Source: a virus. Taken from it: 23,038 nt of DNA. Location of the stretch: the IMG/VR virus record IMGVR_UViG_3300045999_010126, positions 1 to 23,038 of that record; one strand, given 5' to 3'. The notes beneath the pieces were generated by a model. That model was given only the letters and a program-made list of their open reading frames with translations. It was not told where the DNA came from and searched no databases. This document shows positions 1 to 15,107 of this stretch, in pieces; position 1 is the first letter of the stretch, and every line of letters starts with the position of its first letter. Position numbers and translations under genes: made by a program.

Positions 1-1677
1 GGCTCTAACGTTGCTAATACTTCTAATACTATATTTATAAACACATCTTCTTTTGCAGCATCTGCTCTTCCTGACTATGTTGCTACATCCTCTATAATAT
101 TTGATTTTAGCAGCTCAGTTGCCCCATATAGTGCATCCTTACCATTTATTTCTTCAAGTTATTCCTCCCCTAACATAACATTTACTTATATAGGGCAAAA
201 TGGAATTCTCGGAAATTCTAACTACATAACCTCAGAAAGTATTAGCTATTACTTTACTGGTGGTACTAACACAGAAGCATTTGTATTAGCTACTATTTCT
301 AAAGGTGAATTGATGAATAGTACTGGCCCTACTGGCTCCTACAATACACTACTAAGTGGATCATCAGAAAACTACAGATGGCAAGTTACAAATACTAACA
401 TAGAAGATGGAACTTTTACCATAATAATAAGACAAGGAAATGATTCTGATATTGCACCGTCTATCTTAGAAACTTGGTTGTGTTCTTTAGATCCATACTC
501 TCCTAATTACATTGAAAAAGTAATAGGTAACCAAGTTGAATCTGTAACTAATGATAATGGCGAATACTTTGTCCAAACTACAGGCAATTTCCCTAACATA
601 TCAAAGTATGTTTACGTAAAACAAGTAAATGTTCTAACCCCTAACTACTTCAACAACGTTGGAGACCCTAAACCAGAGTATACTGGATCTATCCCATATA
701 TTTCAAATGGGACTTTTGGGGCAGGGAAAGGCTCTAACATACCTACAGGAACAGCAGCAGACTACTATGAAAACATTACCTCGGACACTAACATACAAGG
801 ATTACGAGCTACAGATTATTTAGAATCTATTAATCTATTAGCTAATAAGGATGCATATAATTATAACTTCATAGTTGCCCCTGGCCTTATGACAGACATA
901 GGACCAGATGCAGCTAATGCCATTACATTATTAAACTCTATAGCCCAAACCAGAGGAGATATGATGGTAGTATTTGATTCATCTAAATATAATTCCCAAA
1001 TCAATACAGTTTTAAGCAATGTAATAGGATATAATACATCATATGCGGCAACATATTGGCCTTGGGTAAAAACAATTGATCCTAATACTGCATTTCGAGC
1101 ATGGGTACCTGCTTCTGTTATGATAGCAGGAGTATACGCGTTTAATGACTCTATAGCATACCCTTGGTTTGCGCCTGCTGGGATTGAAAGAGGTGTTATT
1201 TCTAATGCAGTTCAAACTGAGCGTATCTTAACTCAAGGTAACAGAGATACATTATACCAAAGGAATGTTAATCCTATTGCTTCATTTCCTGGTGGAGGAG
1301 CAACTTCTGGTATAATAGTATTTGGGCAAAAGACATTACAAAAGAAAAAAAGTGCTTTAGATCGTGTAAATGTAAGACGTTTACTAATAGAATTAAAAAA
1401 TTACATATCTCAAATTGCAAATTCATTTGTATTTGAACAAAACACAGAAACAACTCGTAGTAATTTCTTAGCTCAAATTAATCCTTATTTATCAACAATA
1501 CAACAACAACAAGGTTTAACTTCATTCCAAGTTGTAATGGATGAATCAAATAATCCACCTAGCGTTGTTGATAATAACCAATTAGTAGGCCAAATTTATT
1601 TACAACCTACACGAACAGCAGAGTTTATCATACTAGACTTTAATGTGTTACCTACAGGGGCAACTTTCCCTGCTTAA
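1..1677 (+). CDS. Contractile tail sheath protein, copy 1 (gp18-like), 5' end missing
   Basis: The frame is open from base 1 to the stop at 1675-1677, so the gene runs off the left edge; in-frame TTG/ATG codons at 310 and 313 are internal. At least 558 residues are visible. From about codon 94 to the end it aligns by eye with the next gene: the block YAATYWPWVKTIDP, the WVPAS..IAGVYAFNDS stretch, ALDRVNVRRLLIELKNYI, and the ending QPTRTAEFIILDFNVLPTG. These are typical of the C-terminal half of T4-like sheath proteins, which polymerise around the tail tube and contract on infection. The first 93 visible residues are Ser/Thr/Asn-rich and match nothing in copy 2, so this paralogue seems to carry an extra or divergent domain. 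The call as sheath is firm; the true start is outside the window. Confidence 0.9.
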   Translation, partial: GSNVANTSNTIFINTSSFAASALPDYVATSSIIFDFSSSVAPYSASLPFISSSYSSPNITFTYIGQNGILGNSNYITSESISYYFTGGTNTEAFVLATISKGELMNSTGPTGSYNTLLSGSSENYRWQVTNTNIEDGTFTIIIRQGNDSDIAPSILETWLCSLDPYSPNYIEKVIGNQVESVTNDNGEYFVQTTGNFPNISKYVYVKQVNVLTPNYFNNVGDPKPEYTGSIPYISNGTFGAGKGSNIPTGTAADYYENITSDTNIQGLRATDYLESINLLANKDAYNYNFIVAPGLMTDIGPDAANAITLLNSIAQTRGDMMVVFDSSKYNSQINTVLSNVIGYNTSYAATYWPWVKTIDPNTAFRAWVPASVMIAGVYAFNDSIAYPWFAPAGIERGVISNAVQTERILTQGNRDTLYQRNVNPIASFPGGGATSGIIVFGQKTLQKKKSALDRVNVRRLLIELKNYISQIANSFVFEQNTETTRSNFLAQINPYLSTIQQQQGLTSFQVVMDESNNPPSVVDNNQLVGQIYLQPTRTAEFIILDFNVLPTGATFPA

Positions 1678-1700
1678 TAATACATTTTAAAAAAAATATT

Positions 1701-1716
1701 AATATTTATAATAAAA
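1701..1716 (+). promoter_or_regulatory. Putative late promoter box upstream of sheath 2
   Basis: The 16-mer aatatttataataaaa ends 7 bases before the ATG at 1724. The same 16-mer occurs at 3466 and 8885, and with one change at 6489, always just upstream of a structural gene. No TTG lies about 20 bases upstream, unlike the host-type sites elsewhere in this window. It is a phage-specific promoter candidate; a translation enhancer is the alternative. Confidence 0.55.
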
Positions 1717-1723
1717 AAATAAA

Positions 1724-3451
1724 ATGGCAAACTTTACAACTTCTCCAGGAGTAGCAATTAGTGAAATAGACAACACATTTTTAACTGGCCAACCTATCCA
1801 AGCAGGCGCTGCTATAATAGGACCAACAGTTACAGGCCCAGTTGAAAACCCAATCCTAGTAACATCATATTCAGATTTTAAAACAATATTTGGTGATATT
1901 TTTATTAGTGGTGGTAATTCTTATTCTTACTTAACTTCAATTGCTGCTTTTAATTACTTTAATTATGGAGGAACTTCATTATTAGTAACAAGAGTTGTTT
2001 CTGGATCAGGAGCTGCTTGGACTCCTGCAGTTAGTACTACAATCTCTAACTATTTAAACTCTACTTCTTCTTCTTTTGAATTAGAAACTATATCAGAAGG
2101 AGTAATCATGAATAACTCTGGTTCTAACATGCTTGGAGCATCAGGATCATTAGTTTCAGGGTCTACTGATAATATTCGTTGGGAGGTTACCAATTCAAAT
2201 ACTGGGTCAGGTACATTTAACGTATTAGTTAGAAGAGGGAATGATACTCAAAATAGTAAAGTGATTCTTGAGTCTTGGAATAACTTAACATTAGACCCAA
2301 ATTCAAACCGCTACATTTCTAGAGTAATTGGAGATCAAGTATTAAGTTATAATGCTACTGAAAACCAAATGGATTTAAATGGAAGTTTTCCTAACAACTC
2401 AAGATATATCCGTGTAAAATCAGTAACTTCTCCTACACCAAACTACTTTGATCCTAACGGAATTGCAGTAACTGCTTACACAGCTTCTATCCCAGTTAAT
2501 GGAAGTGGATCAGCTGGAGGTGCTTTTTACAATGCAACAGGTAATGTAAGTGCTTCTATTAGTTTATACGATCAAATAGGAAATAATACTCAAGGATTAG
2601 TAGGTAGTGATTACAATAGAATGATTGCTTTACTAGGAAATACTGAAGCATACAATTATAACTTACTATTTACCCCTGGTTTATTAGATGATACTCATAC
2701 TGGTCAAGTAACTAATATTATAGCTAATACTATTACAAGAGGTGACAATATGTACGTTGTAGACTTAACAAGCTACAGTAGCTCATTAGGTGATGCAGTA
2801 ACACAAGCACAATCTAGAGACACCTCATATGCAGCAGCATATTGGCCTTGGGTTAGAATCATAGACCCAGCAACCGGAAAACATGTTTGGGTACCAGCTT
2901 CAACAGTAATCCCAGGAGTATATGCATTTAATGATAAAGTATCTGCCCCGTGGTTTGCACCAGCAGGTATTAATCGTGGTGGATTAAACACAGTGTTACA
3001 AGCTCAATATAAATTATCTCAATCTAATAAAGATGTTTTATATGCAAATAATATTAATCCAATTGCAACACTACCTAAACAAGGTGTAGTAGTATTTGGA
3101 CAAAAAACATTACAAAAATCACAATCTGCTCTTGATCGTGTAAATGTAAGACGTTTAATGATTGAATTAAAATCATATATTAAACAAATTGCTGATACAA
3201 TTGTGTTTGAACAAAATACTATAGCTACAAGAAATTCATTTTTAGCTAGAGTAGAACCATTCTTAAGCACAATCCAACAAAAACAAGGACTTTATGCTTA
3301 CCAAGTTGTAATGGATGATTCAAATAATGGGCCTGCGGTAATTGACCAAAATCAATTAGTTGGACAGATTTATATTCAACCAACTAGAACAGCAGAATTC
3401 ATTTCTTTAGATTTTATCTTGTTACCAACAGGAGCTGAATTTCCTGGATAA
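1724..3451 (+). CDS. Contractile tail sheath protein, copy 2 (gp18-like)
   Basis: A 575-residue sheath subunit, close to the usual length for T4-like sheaths. The N-terminal segment (SPGVAISEID near residues 7-16, then a GPTVTGPVENPILVTSY stretch) is the standard start of phage sheath proteins, including the arm that links neighbouring subunits. The C-terminal part holds SYAAAYWPWVRIIDP, WVPASTVIPGVYAFND, WFAPAGINRG, ALDRVNVRRLMIELKSYI and QPTRTAEFISLDF. The ATG at 1724 fits the family start and follows an A-rich leader without a Shine-Dalgarno motif. It lies directly after sheath copy 1 and before the tail tube gene, the classical gp18-gp19 order. It is a complete intact gene and presumably co-assembles with, or substitutes for, copy 1. 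Confidence 0.95.
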   Translation: MANFTTSPGVAISEIDNTFLTGQPIQAGAAIIGPTVTGPVENPILVTSYSDFKTIFGDIFISGGNSYSYLTSIAAFNYFNYGGTSLLVTRVVSGSGAAWTPAVSTTISNYLNSTSSSFELETISEGVIMNNSGSNMLGASGSLVSGSTDNIRWEVTNSNTGSGTFNVLVRRGNDTQNSKVILESWNNLTLDPNSNRYISRVIGDQVLSYNATENQMDLNGSFPNNSRYIRVKSVTSPTPNYFDPNGIAVTAYTASIPVNGSGSAGGAFYNATGNVSASISLYDQIGNNTQGLVGSDYNRMIALLGNTEAYNYNLLFTPGLLDDTHTGQVTNIIANTITRGDNMYVVDLTSYSSSLGDAVTQAQSRDTSYAAAYWPWVRIIDPATGKHVWVPASTVIPGVYAFNDKVSAPWFAPAGINRGGLNTVLQAQYKLSQSNKDVLYANNINPIATLPKQGVVVFGQKTLQKSQSALDRVNVRRLMIELKSYIKQIADTIVFEQNTIATRNSFLARVEPFLSTIQQKQGLYAYQVVMDDSNNGPAVIDQNQLVGQIYIQPTRTAEFISLDFILLPTGAEFPG

Positions 3452-3497: not shown

Positions 3498-3986
3498 ATG
3501 CCAATATTACCTTTTGACGACATATTTTTTACCCCGTTTGAACCCAAACAGACAAACCGTTTTATCCTTTATATGGATGGAGTACCTGCCTTTTTGGTGA
3601 AAGGAGTAGGAGCCGTATCATTAACCCAAACTGCAGTTGCCCTTAACCATATTAACATCCAACGATATGTAAAAGGAAAAACCATTTGGAATACCATCCA
3701 GTTTACAATGTATGAATCAATTACTCCTTCTGCTGCCCAAGCAGTAATGGAATGGGTACGTTTGGGTCACGAATCTGTAACAGGTAGAGATGGTTATTCT
3801 GATTTCTATAAAAAGGATATTAAATTTAATGTTCTTGGACCTGTAGGTGATGTTGTTTCTGAGTGGGTAATTAAAGGAGCATTAATCACTGAAGTAAATT
3901 TTGGAGATTACAACTGGGATGATGATGGTACACCTGTAAACATTACAGTTACCGTACAACCAGATTATTGTATCTTGAACTACTAA
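3498..3986 (+). CDS. Tail tube protein (gp19-like)
   Basis: A 162-residue protein matching the length and pattern of T4-like gp19 tube subunits, which stack as hexameric rings inside the sheath to form the channel for DNA. Visible hallmarks are an N-terminal NRFILYMDGVPAFLVKGVG segment, a central YVKGKTIWNTIQFTMYESI strand pair, an AVMEWVRLGHESVTGRDGY helix and turn, and a C-terminal GALITEVNFGDYNWDDDGTPV followed by the final strand ITVTVQPDYCIL. Its position directly after the sheath gene supports the call. It has its own upstream late-type box and is followed after 20 bases by a strong hairpin terminator, so it ends a transcription unit. Confidence 0.95.
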   Translation: MPILPFDDIFFTPFEPKQTNRFILYMDGVPAFLVKGVGAVSLTQTAVALNHINIQRYVKGKTIWNTIQFTMYESITPSAAQAVMEWVRLGHESVTGRDGYSDFYKKDIKFNVLGPVGDVVSEWVIKGALITEVNFGDYNWDDDGTPVNITVTVQPDYCILNY

Positions 3987-4039: not shown

Positions 4040-4043
4040 AAAT

Positions 4044-4074
4044 TTGGATTTTGTTAAAAACTTTCGTATATTTA
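4044..4074 (+). promoter_or_regulatory. Host-type (Bacteroidota) promoter for the T9SS cargo gene
   Basis: TTTG ends at 4046, and after 20 bases TATATTTA lies at 4067-4074. This matches the Bacteroidota primary-sigma pattern (TTG at -33, TAnnTTTG at -7) except for the last base. The extended string tatatttaaataaa recurs exactly at 20917-20930 before the helicase gene, with the same 20-base spacing to TTG. The ATG follows at 4090. Confidence 0.6.
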
Positions 4075-4089
4075 AATAAATAAAAAATT

Positions 4090-5376
4090 ATGAAAAATTT
4101 AATAAAGGTTTTGTGTTTATTTATATCTTGCATAGGATATACTCAACAATGTTCTTATTTAGGCCCTGATGTATATTTACCATATAATACTACATCAACA
4201 ACATTATATGCTGACCTTACTCAATGTGTTGCTACCCCTAACCCAAACCAAACAACAGGGTATGAAGCTATAAGCATACCATACACTACTCAAACCAACA
4301 CAGGAACTTCATTATCAATGTATGATGATGCCCAACAAGGACCATTCAACATAGGATTTACTTTTAGCTTCTTTGGACAAGCATATAACCAATTTTATGT
4401 AGGATCTAACGGATGGATCTCATTCTCAGATGAACAACCAATAACATTCGTTTCAACCACTATACCTGATAATACAGGAATAGTACCTAGAAATTGCATT
4501 ATGGGACCATGGCAAGATTGGCACCCAGGAGCAGGAGGACAAATTAAGTATCAAGTTCAAGGAACAGCACCGTGTAGAAAATTAATAGTAAGTTGGATAG
4601 ATGTTCCTATGTATTCTTGTACTAGTTTAAAAGGGACATTTCATATAGTAATATATGAATCATCAAATATAATTGAAAACTACATCCAAGACAAACCAAA
4701 TTGCCCAAGTTGGTCTAATGGTACTGCAGTTCAAGGATTACATAATGAAAATGGAGATGTTGCCATTACTACTCCAAATAGAAACTCAACACAATGGACA
4801 ACTGTAAATGAAGCTTATAGATACAACCCAAATGGACCAGAAGCATTACCTATACTTACATGGTATAAAATAGGTGATTCTAACCCAATAGGAACAGGAG
4901 ATATACTTAACATAACCCCATCAGTAGAAGGAGCATATTACGTGTGCAAACCAACTTACCCTGAAGGCTACACCACTTGGAACCAATGTAATGAAATACC
5001 AACATTAAGTTCAGATACTATATTTATACAACTTAACCCCCCAACACTAACAATTGAGCCTACAACCCCAGAATTTAACTTGCGTCAAGAAACAACATGT
5101 TACGTTCCTAATACATTTACTCCAAATGGAGATGAATTTAACCAAACTTTTGGTCCTGTATTTGTTCCTGGATTTATCCCATATGAATTTAGTATGATTA
5201 TATATAATAGATGGGGGGAAGTTATATGGGAATCATTTGAATTTAATTCGTATTGGGATGGTACATATAAAGGAAACGTATTATCTGAAGGTGTATATTC
5301 TTGGAGAATTGCTTATACTTTAGATGAAAGTGCTTATACTGAAGAAATGTATGGACATGTAACTATCCTTAAATAA
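4090..5376 (+). CDS. Secreted protein with type IX secretion (CHU_C/gliding-type) C-terminal sorting domain; phage cargo gene
   Basis: 428 residues. It starts with a signal peptide (basic MKNLIK, hydrophobic core to about residue 17, then TQQ). A beta-rich domain spans about residues 30-245 (VGSNGWISF at 104-112, CIMGPWQDWHPGAGG at 136-150, SWIDVPMYSC at 168-177), a form I know from Bacteroidota surface proteins. An Ig/PKD-like segment follows (about 250-320). Residues 338-428 form the gliding-motility-associated C-terminal domain: YVPNTFTPNGD, YNRWGEVIWES, WDGTYKG, GVYSW and a final GHVTILK. In the family this domain directs export through T9SS and attachment or release at the cell surface. 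Several cysteines (136, 162, 177, 205, 286, 300) fit an extracytoplasmic protein. It lies between tail genes but has its own terminator and promoter upstream. Adhesion, superinfection exclusion or virion decoration are all possible; the actual function is unknown. An FISC at residues 11-14 is only a weak lipobox. Confidence 0.85.
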   Translation: MKNLIKVLCLFISCIGYTQQCSYLGPDVYLPYNTTSTTLYADLTQCVATPNPNQTTGYEAISIPYTTQTNTGTSLSMYDDAQQGPFNIGFTFSFFGQAYNQFYVGSNGWISFSDEQPITFVSTTIPDNTGIVPRNCIMGPWQDWHPGAGGQIKYQVQGTAPCRKLIVSWIDVPMYSCTSLKGTFHIVIYESSNIIENYIQDKPNCPSWSNGTAVQGLHNENGDVAITTPNRNSTQWTTVNEAYRYNPNGPEALPILTWYKIGDSNPIGTGDILNITPSVEGAYYVCKPTYPEGYTTWNQCNEIPTLSSDTIFIQLNPPTLTIEPTTPEFNLRQETTCYVPNTFTPNGDEFNQTFGPVFVPGFIPYEFSMIIYNRWGEVIWESFEFNSYWDGTYKGNVLSEGVYSWRIAYTLDESAYTEEMYGHVTILK

Positions 5377-5462: not shown

Positions 5463-6191
5463 ATGAGTGAATTTAAATTACCTACTGAACAAGTAGAATT
5501 ACCCTCTAAAGGTTTACTTTATCATGAAGATTCTGAATTAGCAAAAGGTATTATCGAAATGAAATACATGACTGCTAAAGAAGAAGACATCCTTACAAAC
5601 CAATCATATATCAGAAATGGTACTGTGTTAGATAGACTAATGAAATCATTAATTGTATCTAAAATTAACTATGATGATTTATTGATTGGTGATAAAAACG
5701 CAATCATGGTTGCTGCTCGTATCCTAGGGTATGGATCAGAGTATACATTTGAATATAACGGAGAAGAACAATCAGTAAATTTAGCTCAACTTGAAGCTAA
5801 GCCGCTTAAAGAAGAATTGTTTAAAGGAAGAATAAATGAATTTCATTTTACTCTCCCAAAAACAAAACATGATGTTACTTTTAAACTTTTAACCCATAAA
5901 GATGAACAAGACATCAGCCGTGAATTAGAAGGACTTAAAAAAATAAACAAAGACAGCTCCCCAGAACTATCTACAAGATTAAAGTATATAATCACTTCAG
6001 TAGGTGGAAATCGCGAAAAAAAAGATATCCGAGAGTTTGTCGATAATTACCTCCTAGCATCAGATGCTAGGGCGCTCAGAGAATATATTCGCGAAGTTCA
6101 ACCAGATGTTGATCTAACTTTTTTTCCCGACGGCAGCGATGATAGAGTCAATCTCCCAATTGGGCTTAAGTTTTTTTGGCCTGACGTATGA
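5463..6191 (+). CDS. Baseplate/tail assembly protein, gp26-like (T4 baseplate family)
   Basis: 242 residues. The opening ELPSKGLLYHEDSELAKG, then EMKYMTAKEEDILTNQSYI, LDRLMKSLIV and DLLIGDKNAIMVAARILGYG, is the pattern I recognise from the T4 gp26-type baseplate family of T4-like phages. The C-terminal half is charged and ends in IGLKFFWPDV. In T4, gp26 belongs to the central hub or its assembly. It lies just before a small overlapping gene and the tape measure gene, which is where many tailed phages encode their tail assembly chaperones. The last 53 bases overlap the next gene in the +1 frame. The leader (5377-5462) has no late-type box and no clear terminator, so it may be read from upstream. 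Confidence 0.75.
   Translation: MSEFKLPTEQVELPSKGLLYHEDSELAKGIIEMKYMTAKEEDILTNQSYIRNGTVLDRLMKSLIVSKINYDDLLIGDKNAIMVAARILGYGSEYTFEYNGEEQSVNLAQLEAKPLKEELFKGRINEFHFTLPKTKHDVTFKLLTHKDEQDISRELEGLKKINKDSSPELSTRLKYIITSVGGNREKKDIREFVDNYLLASDARALREYIREVQPDVDLTFFPDGSDDRVNLPIGLKFFWPDV
6118..6188 (+). other. Overlap window with two T7 runs: possible programmed frameshift
   Basis: The frame of the downstream 111-aa gene is open from 6118 to the upstream gene's stop at 6189-6191. Two seven-T runs lie here: 6119-6125 (read ACT TTT TTT CCC in the upstream frame) and 6171-6177 (read AAG TTT TTT TGG). At the second run a +1 slip of two tRNAs on TTT TTT keeps perfect pairing and would fuse the two proteins. 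The position before the tape measure gene resembles the lambda G/GT arrangement, but the required shift is +1 (or -2), not -1. Independent start at ATG 6139 is an equally simple explanation. Confidence 0.3.
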
Positions 6192-11492: not shown

Positions 11493-14400
11493 ATGGCAAA
11501 TATAATAGGAGAACCTCTTAAAGCATATGTTGCAAATCAAATAAATGCAAGACAAAAACTTCATGGGAGTGGGGTTTTTAAAACAATCCCTAATTCTTCA
11601 ACAAACGATAATAGTAGTTTATATTCACTATTTGAAAATTATTCAAGAAACGAAGACCAAATAAGCACTCTAAATTCTAATACAGCTTGGATAAAATTAG
11701 CTTCTGGAGTTTCTTTAAATGGAAATGAAGGGATTCAACGTTTAAAAGATATAGGATTTTTAGATGAAGAAATTCCTCAACTTTTAGGAGATTCTTTAGC
11801 TAAAAATTTTATTCTTTATGGAGGAACTGCAACCTGGGGAACTAATGGTTATGGAAATATTGCAACAACCCAAAGGCAAGGATTTTTAGAAAATTTTAAC
11901 CCTAACAGCTCCTACATGTATAGTTACACCCCAGTAACTGTAAAAAACCCAACAACAGGTAAAAATGAACAAGTAAAAGCTGCTGATTTTGGATATAGCC
12001 CAATGCCGGGTATAGTAAGTGCTGAAATAAAATCATTAAATAGAGGATCATTAGAAAAAGCATTTATAAAAATAAAAGCTAATGATAGAAGACAACTAGA
12101 TATTCTTGATATTCTATATATGAGATTAGGATATACTGTTTTACTTGAATGGGGGCATAGTTTATATACTACTGATGGAGAAAATAAAAAAAGGGTAAAC
12201 AAAACCCTAATTGAAGATAAGTTTTTTCAAGTTGGAGAGGCTAGTTCATACTTTGATTTTATGGGGGTTGGTGGGTTAAGCCTAATAGAATCATATAGAA
12301 ATGAATATGCAGGAAATTACGACGGGATGTTAGCCGTAGTCTCTAATTTTAGTTGGACTTTTAATCCTGATGGCTCCTATGATATAGACCTAACTTTAAT
12401 TAGTATGGGAGACGTTATAGAGTCTTTAAAAAGTAATGTTTCTATTGATTCTACCCTAGCTAGTGCTATTAATACAGTTACAACATCTTCAGAAAGCAAT
12501 GACCCTGTACTAGAACAAAGTAGAAGTACTAATATAATATCATCAGCACTTTACATATATAAATTATTAGGATATACTTACCCTGCAAAACCAGTATCAA
12601 TTACAACAGCTGATGCTCAAAAGTATGAGATAGGTCGTATTTTAAATCCCCCATCTGGTGTAACTATTCTCCAAGAAACTTTTGAATTCTATTACCGCGC
12701 CCCTAACCCATATGATGGAGTCTCACTCGCTGTATCTATAGGCACCAGACAAACTTTTACTAGCCTAGACCCAGATAATGAAGCCCGCTTATACATCCAA
12801 ACCCTTCCAGAATATATTGAAAAAACTAAATCATCAGAAACAGTCGTCCAAGCTATTGGGGGCATATTAGTTATTGATTCTGGTGGAAAAAGCCATTGGT
12901 TTAGTTTTACTAAACTTTCTTCTAATGTTTCAAATACAATACCTAACCCTTTAGATACTTCTATAATAGGAGATGCTATAGTAATCAATACCGATACTAC
13001 TAAATGTTATTATTTAAGATTTGGGTATTTATTGCAATTTCTTCAAGAAAAAATCATCCCTGTTATAAAAGGGACTAGTAACCCACCATTAACTAAAATA
13101 GATTATGATGTTAGTACTAATAAAATGTATTTTATTTCTAACCAAATTTCTTTAGATCCTAGGGTATGTTTAGTTAGAAATGATTCCTTTTTAAAATCTA
13201 ATGGAAACTTTGCCCCTTCTTTTACAGCTTTAAACCCTTTTACAGATAAAGACTCTTCAGGAACTAGAACAAAAAATTCAAATGTAGCATACCCAATGAA
13301 TATTTATTTAAACTTTGAATTTATTATTTCAAGTTTAAACAACAACACTAATGAAAAAGGAGATGTAAGTATTTATGGACTCATTTCATCCATTTGCTCA
13401 GGTATAAACAAAACTTTAGGAGGAATAAATAATCTTGAACCGGTAATTGATAAAAATACTAATGTCCTTAAAATTATAGATTCTACTCCAATTCCTGGAG
13501 TGTCTTGTCCTGACGCTTCAACCCCATATGATCTTAATTTGTTTGGATATTACCAAATTGATAAATCTAAAAGAACAAATGCCGAAATAGCAGAATATAC
13601 TTCTACATTTGTTAGAAAAGTAGACTTAAAAACAGCTATTACTCCTGAATATGCTACTATGGTTACAATAGGGGCAACAGCTGGAGGCTATGTTAAAGGG
13701 ACAGAAGCAACCGCTTTTTCAAGGTGGAATTTAGGATTAAAAGATAGATTTAAAAATGAAGTTGTTGCCCCTAACCCCCCATCATCTACAACTACATCAG
13801 GATTGGATGAAGCAGAATACAATTATGCTACTCAATTTTTAAGAAAAAAATTCCAATGTTATGGGTTTAATGACCCCCCAACAATAGCTGGAAGTGTTCT
13901 TTCCCCAGGTATAGATACATCTAATATTAGAGTAAACAACTTATTAGGCGATGTTAACCCAGAAGTTATAGAAAAAAATTTATCTGTTGTTACTGAATTT
14001 TACAAATATTTAATAGCTAAAAAAGGGCAAAAATCTCAACAAGCAGGTACTATTGGATTTATTCCATTTAAATTAGGAATTAATATGGATGGTATTTCTG
14101 GTATTAAAATATATAATAAACTTGAAGTAAATTCTAAATTTTTGCCTACTAAATATGGAGATACTTTAAATTTTATTATAACAGGTGTAAACCATAGTCT
14201 TAAAGATAATGATTGGGAAACTAATTTAGAAACCATTGTAATGCCTAAAACTTCTACAATAGATTCTTTAGATCTTAATTTAGCTACTATTAAAGAAATA
14301 ATAAAAAAGCTTGAAGCCTCAGAAGCACTTATATGCACCCCAGAAGCATCTGCTGGAACCTTAGGAACTAATCCTTCAGCCGCTTTAAGAAATCCAAATG

Positions 14401-15107
14401 CACTTTCATTATCAAAAATATCAGCTATAGAACAAAAAGCAAAACAATCCTTAGAAGATGCTGAACTTTATTGGAGGCCTAAAAATGAAGCAATTGCAGA
14501 CCAAATAAAAGCTAGCACCCCTCTTAGATTAGCTATAGTAAGAGCAGCAGCTTCATATGTTGGTCAAACAGAATCTAACAAAGGAGATAACCTCCAATTC
14601 TGTGACCCAGTATTTGAAACTGCTATGAAAGACATAGGATGGAGTTCAGGACTTATGTGGTGTTCTCTATTTGCTAAAAGAGTTTGGAAAGATGCATATT
14701 ACTCTGGGAATAATGTAATATCCTCAGGGATCCCCGATGCAACAACTAAAGAAATATGGACAACTACTTTAAAAAATGGGGCATTAATAGCTTCATCTGG
14801 ACAACAAATTATGAATAACTTTGCCAATGTACAAATAAATTCAAAATCAACTAGAAAAGCAATTACTCTTAATGAAGCAATAACTGGAGCTAAACCATTA
14901 CTTCCTGGGGACATGTTTAGAGCAGATATAGGCCACACTGGAATTGTAGTATCTGCAGCTTATGGACCTGGGGGAAAAGTAACAAATATAGGGGGTATTG
15001 ATGGTAATTGTTTAAATAAAGTTTGTTACCAACCAAGCATGGGATTCGCCTCTATAGGAGTAAATTATAAGTATACAAGTTACGATTTTGCTCAAGTAAT
15101 TTTTTAA
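11493..15107 (+). CDS. Baseplate hub protein with C-terminal cysteine-peptidase/amidase-like lysin domain
   Basis: 1204 residues. The N-terminal part (MPGIVSAEIKSLNRGSLEKA, DILDILYMRLGYTVLLEWG, VVSNFSWTFNPDGSYDIDL) and a segment near 850-920 (GFIPFKLGINMDGISGIKI, ITGVNHSLKDNDWETNLET) look like a tail hub protein that caps the tube. The last roughly 190 residues form a separate domain like CHAP/NlpC-type cell-wall hydrolases: RAAASYVGQTE, then GLMWCSLFAKRVW with candidate nucleophile Cys1057, PGDMFRADIGHTGIVVS with His1148, and IGGIDGN with Asp1170 or Asn1172 as the third residue. By analogy to T4 gp5, whose lysozyme opens the cell wall, this domain probably cuts peptidoglycan during entry. 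A Lys/Ala/Glu-rich helical linker precedes it (about 970-1010). The domain fusion is clear; the bond cut is not known. Confidence 0.8.
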   Translation: MANIIGEPLKAYVANQINARQKLHGSGVFKTIPNSSTNDNSSLYSLFENYSRNEDQISTLNSNTAWIKLASGVSLNGNEGIQRLKDIGFLDEEIPQLLGDSLAKNFILYGGTATWGTNGYGNIATTQRQGFLENFNPNSSYMYSYTPVTVKNPTTGKNEQVKAADFGYSPMPGIVSAEIKSLNRGSLEKAFIKIKANDRRQLDILDILYMRLGYTVLLEWGHSLYTTDGENKKRVNKTLIEDKFFQVGEASSYFDFMGVGGLSLIESYRNEYAGNYDGMLAVVSNFSWTFNPDGSYDIDLTLISMGDVIESLKSNVSIDSTLASAINTVTTSSESNDPVLEQSRSTNIISSALYIYKLLGYTYPAKPVSITTADAQKYEIGRILNPPSGVTILQETFEFYYRAPNPYDGVSLAVSIGTRQTFTSLDPDNEARLYIQTLPEYIEKTKSSETVVQAIGGILVIDSGGKSHWFSFTKLSSNVSNTIPNPLDTSIIGDAIVINTDTTKCYYLRFGYLLQFLQEKIIPVIKGTSNPPLTKIDYDVSTNKMYFISNQISLDPRVCLVRNDSFLKSNGNFAPSFTALNPFTDKDSSGTRTKNSNVAYPMNIYLNFEFIISSLNNNTNEKGDVSIYGLISSICSGINKTLGGINNLEPVIDKNTNVLKIIDSTPIPGVSCPDASTPYDLNLFGYYQIDKSKRTNAEIAEYTSTFVRKVDLKTAITPEYATMVTIGATAGGYVKGTEATAFSRWNLGLKDRFKNEVVAPNPPSSTTTSGLDEAEYNYATQFLRKKFQCYGFNDPPTIAGSVLSPGIDTSNIRVNNLLGDVNPEVIEKNLSVVTEFYKYLIAKKGQKSQQAGTIGFIPFKLGINMDGISGIKIYNKLEVNSKFLPTKYGDTLNFIITGVNHSLKDNDWETNLETIVMPKTSTIDSLDLNLATIKEIIKKLEASEALICTPEASAGTLGTNPSAALRNPNALSLSKISAIEQKAKQSLEDAELYWRPKNEAIADQIKASTPLRLAIVRAAASYVGQTESNKGDNLQFCDPVFETAMKDIGWSSGLMWCSLFAKRVWKDAYYSGNNVISSGIPDATTKEIWTTTLKNGALIASSGQQIMNNFANVQINSKSTRKAITLNEAITGAKPLLPGDMFRADIGHTGIVVSAAYGPGGKVTNIGGIDGNCLNKVCYQPSMGFASIGVNYKYTSYDFAQVIF

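Follow-up and report, generated by a model that had tools for sequence, protein, structure and literature searches.

A probable accessory gene in a T4-like phage tail cluster encodes a predicted type IX-exported protein of the gliding-adhesin type

Export by the type IX system (T9SS) through Sec, the SprA translocon and a shuttle is established biology (PMC12618676, PMC9143113, PMC10994853). Type B substrates have five conserved motifs, A to E, in their last 100 residues that are required for secretion (PMC12618676), and they require PorP/SprF shuttles, which anchor them at the surface (PMC12618676, PMC9143113). The closest described systems to the phage gene discussed here are SprB (type B C-terminal domain, CTD, with SprF as shuttle) and RemA of Flavobacterium johnsoniae. 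Its product shares with both a signal peptide, extracellular beta or Ig domains and a T9SS CTD; moreover, residues 50-191 of RemA are related to its central domain, and the SprB repeats are shared by longer phage relatives. Unlike SprB and RemA, the gene is phage-encoded, with no shuttle gene adjacent to it or in the virus records searched. It was found in a virus record of IMG/VR (IMGVR_UViG_3300045999_010126), of which the whole stretch analysed, 23,038 nucleotides, is called the window. The window form is repeat-free and far shorter than the 669 kDa SprB, and its CTD is of type B, whereas that of RemA is of type A.

Phage genes of related kinds have been described. Cryophage likewise encodes cargo for the host T9SS, for which its authors suggested superinfection exclusion, but this cargo consists of enzymes and a PA14 protein with type A sorting domains that vary between phage variants, whereas the window family is one conserved type B adhesin family in many phages (PMC7468147). 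In crAss-like phages the sorting domain occurs in phage ORFs of Bacteroidota, as here, although near BACON repeats and in gut phages, and the N-terminal domain of the window family was not reported there (PMC6949934). Viral proteins annotated in UniProt as 'Gliding motility-associated C-terminal domain' (A0A6J5NJX2; A0A7S9STS8 of Virus NIOZ-UU157) have the same CHU_C-type fold, but their match to the window protein looks mostly limited to the C-terminal domain. GhpA of Aureispira (9flp), a 5898-aa protein of a predatory bacterium, matches the repeats and CTD (5801-5886) of long phage homologs, whereas the window protein has only the class of CTD in common with it. As far as the published phage T9SS cargo could be read, what is new is a single widespread type B family of gliding-adhesin type, with a tail-cluster moron site, a relation to RemA and a predicted dependence on a host shuttle.

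The gene is an ORF for 428 aa with an ATG start. An earlier note had read it as encoding a signal peptide and a CHU_C/gliding-type sorting domain, and both were confirmed, the first by hydropathy and the second by two profile models above their cut-offs. The note had named the lack of either as refuting its reading, and neither lack was seen. The features of the gene and its predicted product are as follows.

4090..5376, plus strand: phage-encoded, putative T9SS type B surface protein of 428 aa (ORF, CHU_C, TIGR04131, synteny, tree)
4090..4146, plus strand: Sec signal peptide, residues 1-19, with a predicted cut after ...GYTQ (hydropathy; 72/72 complete relatives)
4201..4845, plus strand: central beta domain, residues 38-252, RemA/nidogen-like, with conserved cysteines (AlphaFold pLDDT 93.7; RemA profile match)
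4852..5037, plus strand: Ig-like domain, approximately residues 255-316, completed by the N-terminal strand 22-30 (DSSP of the model)
5104..5367, plus strand: type B T9SS sorting domain, CHU_C / TIGR04131, residues 339-426 (profile and fold matches)

The sorting domain is matched by Pfam CHU_C (PF13585) on residues 339-422 (E 1.3e-13, 51.3 bits, cut-off 27) and by the T9SS type B model TIGR04131 of NCBIfam on residues 339-426 (E 1.9e-11, 43.9 bits, cut-off 35), in both cases at the very C-terminus. The sorting signal that the earlier note had placed there can now be specified as type B. TIGR04131 is matched by all 37 of the 37 aligned family members, and a CHU_C profile search of fourteen control genomes gave no match. 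Residues N341, FTP343-345, N351, NRWG373-376, W389, G391, G401, Y403 and G422 are invariant in the family alignment.

The N-terminus consists of MKNLIKVLCLFISCIGYTQ before the predicted cut and QC after it, with Lys followed by a hydrophobic core. Its best 11-mer has a mean hydropathy of 2.58, compared with at most 0.94 in eight other window proteins tested. Under the hydropathy rule used for calling signal peptides, the feature is kept in every relative with a complete N-terminus versus 52/931 other ORFs of the same loci, and its letters vary among relatives even though the feature is conserved. A lipoprotein was ruled out, as there is no lipobox: Gln or Tyr, and not Gly, Ala or Ser, stands ahead of the first Cys. 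The N-domain has 11 conserved Cys columns in the family; the lineage of the window no longer has Cys 32, 93 and 293. Cys 21 and 46 are both present in 83 members and both absent from 12, with no mixed case; the same pattern holds for Cys 93 and 293 (81, 4 and 0). This co-occurrence is as expected of a disulfide, but it is partly confounded by shared descent.

An AlphaFold model based on 37 sequences (pLDDT 78) is all-beta past the signal peptide, except for one 4-residue helix. The proposal of cysteine-containing beta domains is borne out by this model together with the 8 of 11 Cys columns kept by the window protein. In the model, an Ig-like unit closed by the N-terminal strand and the central domain are joined to the sorting domain by a linker of low confidence (320-334). 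Structural matches spanning residues 22-319 are Ig domains, a common fold, with Z up to 7.9. The sorting domain superposes on translocon-bound CTDs of F. johnsoniae, NucA (8glk_D, Z 8.4, 73 residues, 2.1 A) and RemZ (8gl8_D, Z 8.0), and also on the CTDs of PorZ, PorU and RgpB (predicted model). The fold alone is unspecific, since some streptococcal proteases score equally high or higher (Z 10.2). The central domain is modelled as a confident fold, with a best Z of 5.4 in structure comparison; Foldseek against the PDB gave no hit with E <0.001 for either the whole model or this domain, and a single-protein sequence search of the PDB gave no significant match. On the model, the central domain is without a close solved relative, which does not make the fold new, RemA being matched by sequence only.

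Taken together, the sorting models, the conserved signal peptides and the fold match to translocon CTDs support the claim that a phage tail cluster encodes a host-like T9SS substrate. Judging from these sequence features, we think that the protein is very probably exported and displayed on the surface, or released, by the host T9SS. Infected cells would then probably display a viral protein, because the product bears host T9SS export signals. In the mechanism that we propose, the protein made by the phage would carry a Sec signal peptide, beta domains prone to form disulfides and a sorting domain of type B, a step supported by sequence. From established T9SS biology, Sec would be expected to bring it into the periplasm and the SprA translocon of the host to pass it across the outer membrane. 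A host shuttle of the PorP/SprF kind may take the protein from the pore and retain it at the surface, perhaps on the gliding track.

A host shuttle is probably needed because the sorting domain is of type B and no virus record searched encodes one: none was found in 22 virus records, whereas the L085 bacterial genome, which bears a relative, has 17. In F. johnsoniae, 3/12 type B genes are orphans, and the three orphan CTDs (>44% identity) share one shuttle (PMC12618676). Between the phage CTDs and their best bacterial counterparts, identity is 46-56%. The phage protein therefore resembles these orphan substrates, having no shuttle and a CTD identity in the range at which the orphans share theirs. 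Overproduced type B CTD fusions were not secreted unless a shuttle was co-produced (PMC12618676), so export of the phage protein, with no shuttle from the phage, could be inefficient.

In the 23-kb fragment, two tail-sheath genes are followed by the tube gene, the 428-aa gene, a gp26-like hub gene, a large gene placed like a tape-measure gene, and then genes for the baseplate. T4-like replication genes (gp32, RecA-like, 5'-3' exonuclease, DnaB and RNR small chain) follow downstream of the tail cluster. The two sheath-like genes are in tandem at window 1-3451, and both are kept in relatives. In the baseplate region, a 1204-aa protein (window 11493-15107) ends in 170 residues that look by eye like a CHAP/NlpC-type cell-wall endopeptidase; it has no Pfam match at 0.01. 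The features flanking the gene are the following.

3498..3986, plus strand: tail tube gene, upstream flank (PHROG 4542 tail tube, E 2.1e-22; 52.5% identical to the tube of Flavobacterium phage immuto)
4006..4034, plus strand: intrinsic-terminator-like hairpin that may close the tube transcript (stem-loop of -16.6 kcal/mol, then a T-rich tract)
4043..4074, plus strand: candidate promoter, TTTG + 20 bases + TATATTTA, unlike the ATATTTATA motif of the tail genes (read from sequence; promoter function putative)
5463..6191, plus strand: gp26-like baseplate hub gene, downstream flank (PHROG 150 baseplate hub, E 3.5e-8; directly after the tube gene in relatives without the insert)

The same hairpin occurs in most of the relatives' intergenic stretches examined, with or without the inserted gene; a stricter terminator scan did not list the window hairpin. 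Among the tail-locus phages, the ATATTTATA motif lies upstream of the tube gene in 29/31, of the second sheath gene in 25/26 and of the tape measure gene in 6/6, and upstream of the sorting-domain gene in 0/25. Hits of a sigma-70 scan were no more numerous than in shuffled sequences. The upstream hairpin and the different promoter-like motif make the gene a candidate for regulation of its own, apart from the flanking tail genes.

A tblastn scan of IMG/VR gave 152 relatives, and the 80 most similar to the window were kept. Homologues at the same locus, a search for which the earlier note had proposed, were found: the tube gene stands immediately before the homolog in another 35 contigs, and those that extend far enough have sheath genes upstream. 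In one case (L003) the protein is 98% identical. An assembly chimera was ruled out by this shared gene order. A search with the tube protein gave 79 further contigs, a pattern-limited sample, in 58 of which the hub follows the tube without the gene; 7 have the gene, and the remainder end or hold other genes. The gene is missing in relatives whose tube is 77-89% identical. One of them (L166, tube 89% identical) is a clean empty site consisting of tube, hairpin, ATATTTATA motif and next gene, and in carriers the gene is inserted between the hairpin and the ATATTTATA motif. In the cultured Flavobacterium phage immuto the hub comes directly after the tube, and no CHU_C protein was found in its whole 160 kb genome. 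Given the empty sites, the placement between hairpin and motif and the missing ATATTTATA motif, the best reading of the sequences is that the gene is a moron, that is, an accessory gene between conserved phage modules.

The position behind the tube gene in so many contigs might suggest a core part of the tail or baseplate that is made in the cytoplasm and has a host-like C-terminus by chance. A core tail gene was largely ruled out by the close empty-site relatives that share the tail genes, and the same absence supports the earlier note in its view against a simple structural part. Besides, every complete relative has a signal peptide and the upstream signals differ from those of the tail genes, so that we regard this explanation as extremely improbable. 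Adjacency to tail genes is also a point in favour of virion decoration, in which the protein would leave the cell, or be freed at lysis, and bind particles in the manner of Hoc-like head decorations or tail appendages. Some support comes from the Hoc-like head decoration profile PHROG 2973 (phrog_2973), matched by 8/37 members, and from weak tblastn matches that link the repeats to T5-like decoration proteins. These matches, however, concern Ig/PKD-type repeats that are absent from the window protein, for which the PHROG profiles gave no match, Hoc-like head decoration included. With a conserved signal peptide and T9SS sorting domain, relatives that have the same tail and lack the gene, and larger phages in which the gene is not beside these tail genes, decoration is in our opinion improbable.

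Apart from the gene itself, the tube-hub interval looks like an insertion hot spot from the sequences compared. It holds a RecA/KaiC-like ATPase in L203 and L205, a large zinc protein of treble-clef type, perhaps a homing endonuclease, in L196, small membrane-type ORFs in L183 and possible fibre genes in L186. In most relatives (L016, L021, L048 and others) there is an extra 123-aa ORF (MKLDSLRTLVKEEL...) between the homolog and the hub. It occupies a constant pre-hub interval of 431 bases and is absent in the window, L003 and L043, where the interval is 83-86 bases; its L166 copy gave no Pfam match.

Most other relatives lie away from those tail genes, in contigs of up to 436 kb and in the 634 kb phage LR745206 (HMM search), and a GH19 endolysin and other phage genes are near some of those in large contigs. 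No isolated phage with the gene was found, only LR745206 and LR756502, both metagenomic. The dN/dS values against two relatives are 0.15 and 0.31, versus 0.03-0.09 for the tube gene; by this sequence measure, the gene is under purifying selection, looser than on the tube. In one locus (L169:3865-5630) three consecutive ORFs stand in place of the homolog, and all three have a signal peptide of their own. They encode a new N-terminal domain, a PKD-like piece and, in the last of them, an Ig plus CHU_C piece. As every split piece carries an export signal, export looks like a kept trait.

A scan of bacteria, with one genome per species, gave 131 relatives, and the listed ones come almost entirely from Bacteroidota bins. 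In a quick tree of the N-domain with 71 viral sequences, drawn from the 80 most similar to the window, and 80 bacterial ones, all the viral sequences are on one side of a branch against the bacterial ones (SH-aLRT 95). Tail-locus and large-phage members are intermixed in the viral clade, where starred branches force at least 9 changes of label. With one viral clade of mixed locations, the most economical history is a single capture from the host, followed by exchange among phages, and the tree suggests one capture from a Bacteroidota host. A profile of 113 central domains, phage and bacterial, matches RemA residues 50-191 with E 3.9e-11, and Pfam NIDO (nidogen-like) is weakly matched by 16/113 members; RemA was not listed at E 0.1 with the phage-only full-length profile A2.

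A gene so clearly host-derived in the tree could serve the infected host, aiding its persistence through attachment, biofilm or nutrient capture in a long or chronic infection, much as auxiliary metabolic genes do. The enzymatic T9SS cargo of Cryophage (PMC7468147) also points this way; the window protein, in contrast, has no catalytic domain, and the T4-like gene set suggests a lytic life. A host-benefit role thus appears quite unlikely to us. No integrase is visible in the fragment; the gene set hints at lytic life, 23 kb being insufficient to judge.

The reading that we favour, and to which we give slightly better than even chances, is that of a moron captured once, kept and exchanged among phages, exported by the T9SS and displayed so as to mask host adhesins, for instance in superinfection exclusion. 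The weakest step of the proposed mechanism is the last one, in which the displayed protein would change or mask the adhesins of the infected cell, either by competing for shuttles or by covering. Further phages would then adsorb less well, and progeny would not be trapped on cells or debris. Masking or shuttle competition is favoured because of the protein's likeness to the adhesins that move on the host surface. In F. johnsoniae, mutants in gliding adhesins are resistant to phages; a published tie of SprB or RemA to phage resistance was sought and none was found among the papers searched. As the main job of the protein, superinfection exclusion or adhesin masking is a tentative assignment, somewhat short of an even chance, and nothing in the sequence favours exclusion over adhesion, biofilm or virion binding. 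The type B domain could also act as a decoy that takes the PorP/SprF shuttles of the host, replaces moving adhesins on the gliding track, alters motility and closes the cell to further phages, which we consider unlikely. We know of no earlier phage take-over of the gliding machinery.

The main rival to exclusion or masking is an adhesin for spread, displayed or released before or at lysis, by which infected cells would stick to neighbours, surfaces or glycans so that progeny reach new hosts. The family has the RemA-related domain, and longer relatives carry SprB and PKD repeats; the repeats and CTD are also like those of the grappling-hook protein GhpA of Aureispira (long-homolog profile, E 2.6e-93 overall). 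The window form has none of these repeats and, at only 428 aa, would be a poor long-reach adhesin; nor was a ligand-binding site identified. We see such spreading as a doubtful alternative.

Most phage proteins known to remodel the cell surface work at the inner membrane, in the periplasm, or on LPS and porins. In the case described here, T4-like and large phages of Bacteroidota that form a widespread lineage retain a host gliding-adhesin-type gene, the product of which should exit by the T9SS. If this is true, infection reaches the T9SS and the gliding surface, and the orphan sorting domain is a natural probe of shuttle choice by type B substrates. An exported protein would also be added to the possible weapons of phages against competing phages in lakes and seas.

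Two observations on the large phages may be added. In 8 large-phage loci, L072 and L020 among them, the homolog has beside it or close by a gene for an FKBP-type peptidyl-prolyl isomerase-like protein without signal peptide, the FKBP-type identity being assigned by eye and the adjacency possibly a coincidence; the T9SS translocon includes an isomerase of this kind. In addition, some huge phages have several CHU_C proteins, of up to 1670 aa: there are four matches in LR745206 and three in LR756502, and L015/L017:556-4599 is a further case.
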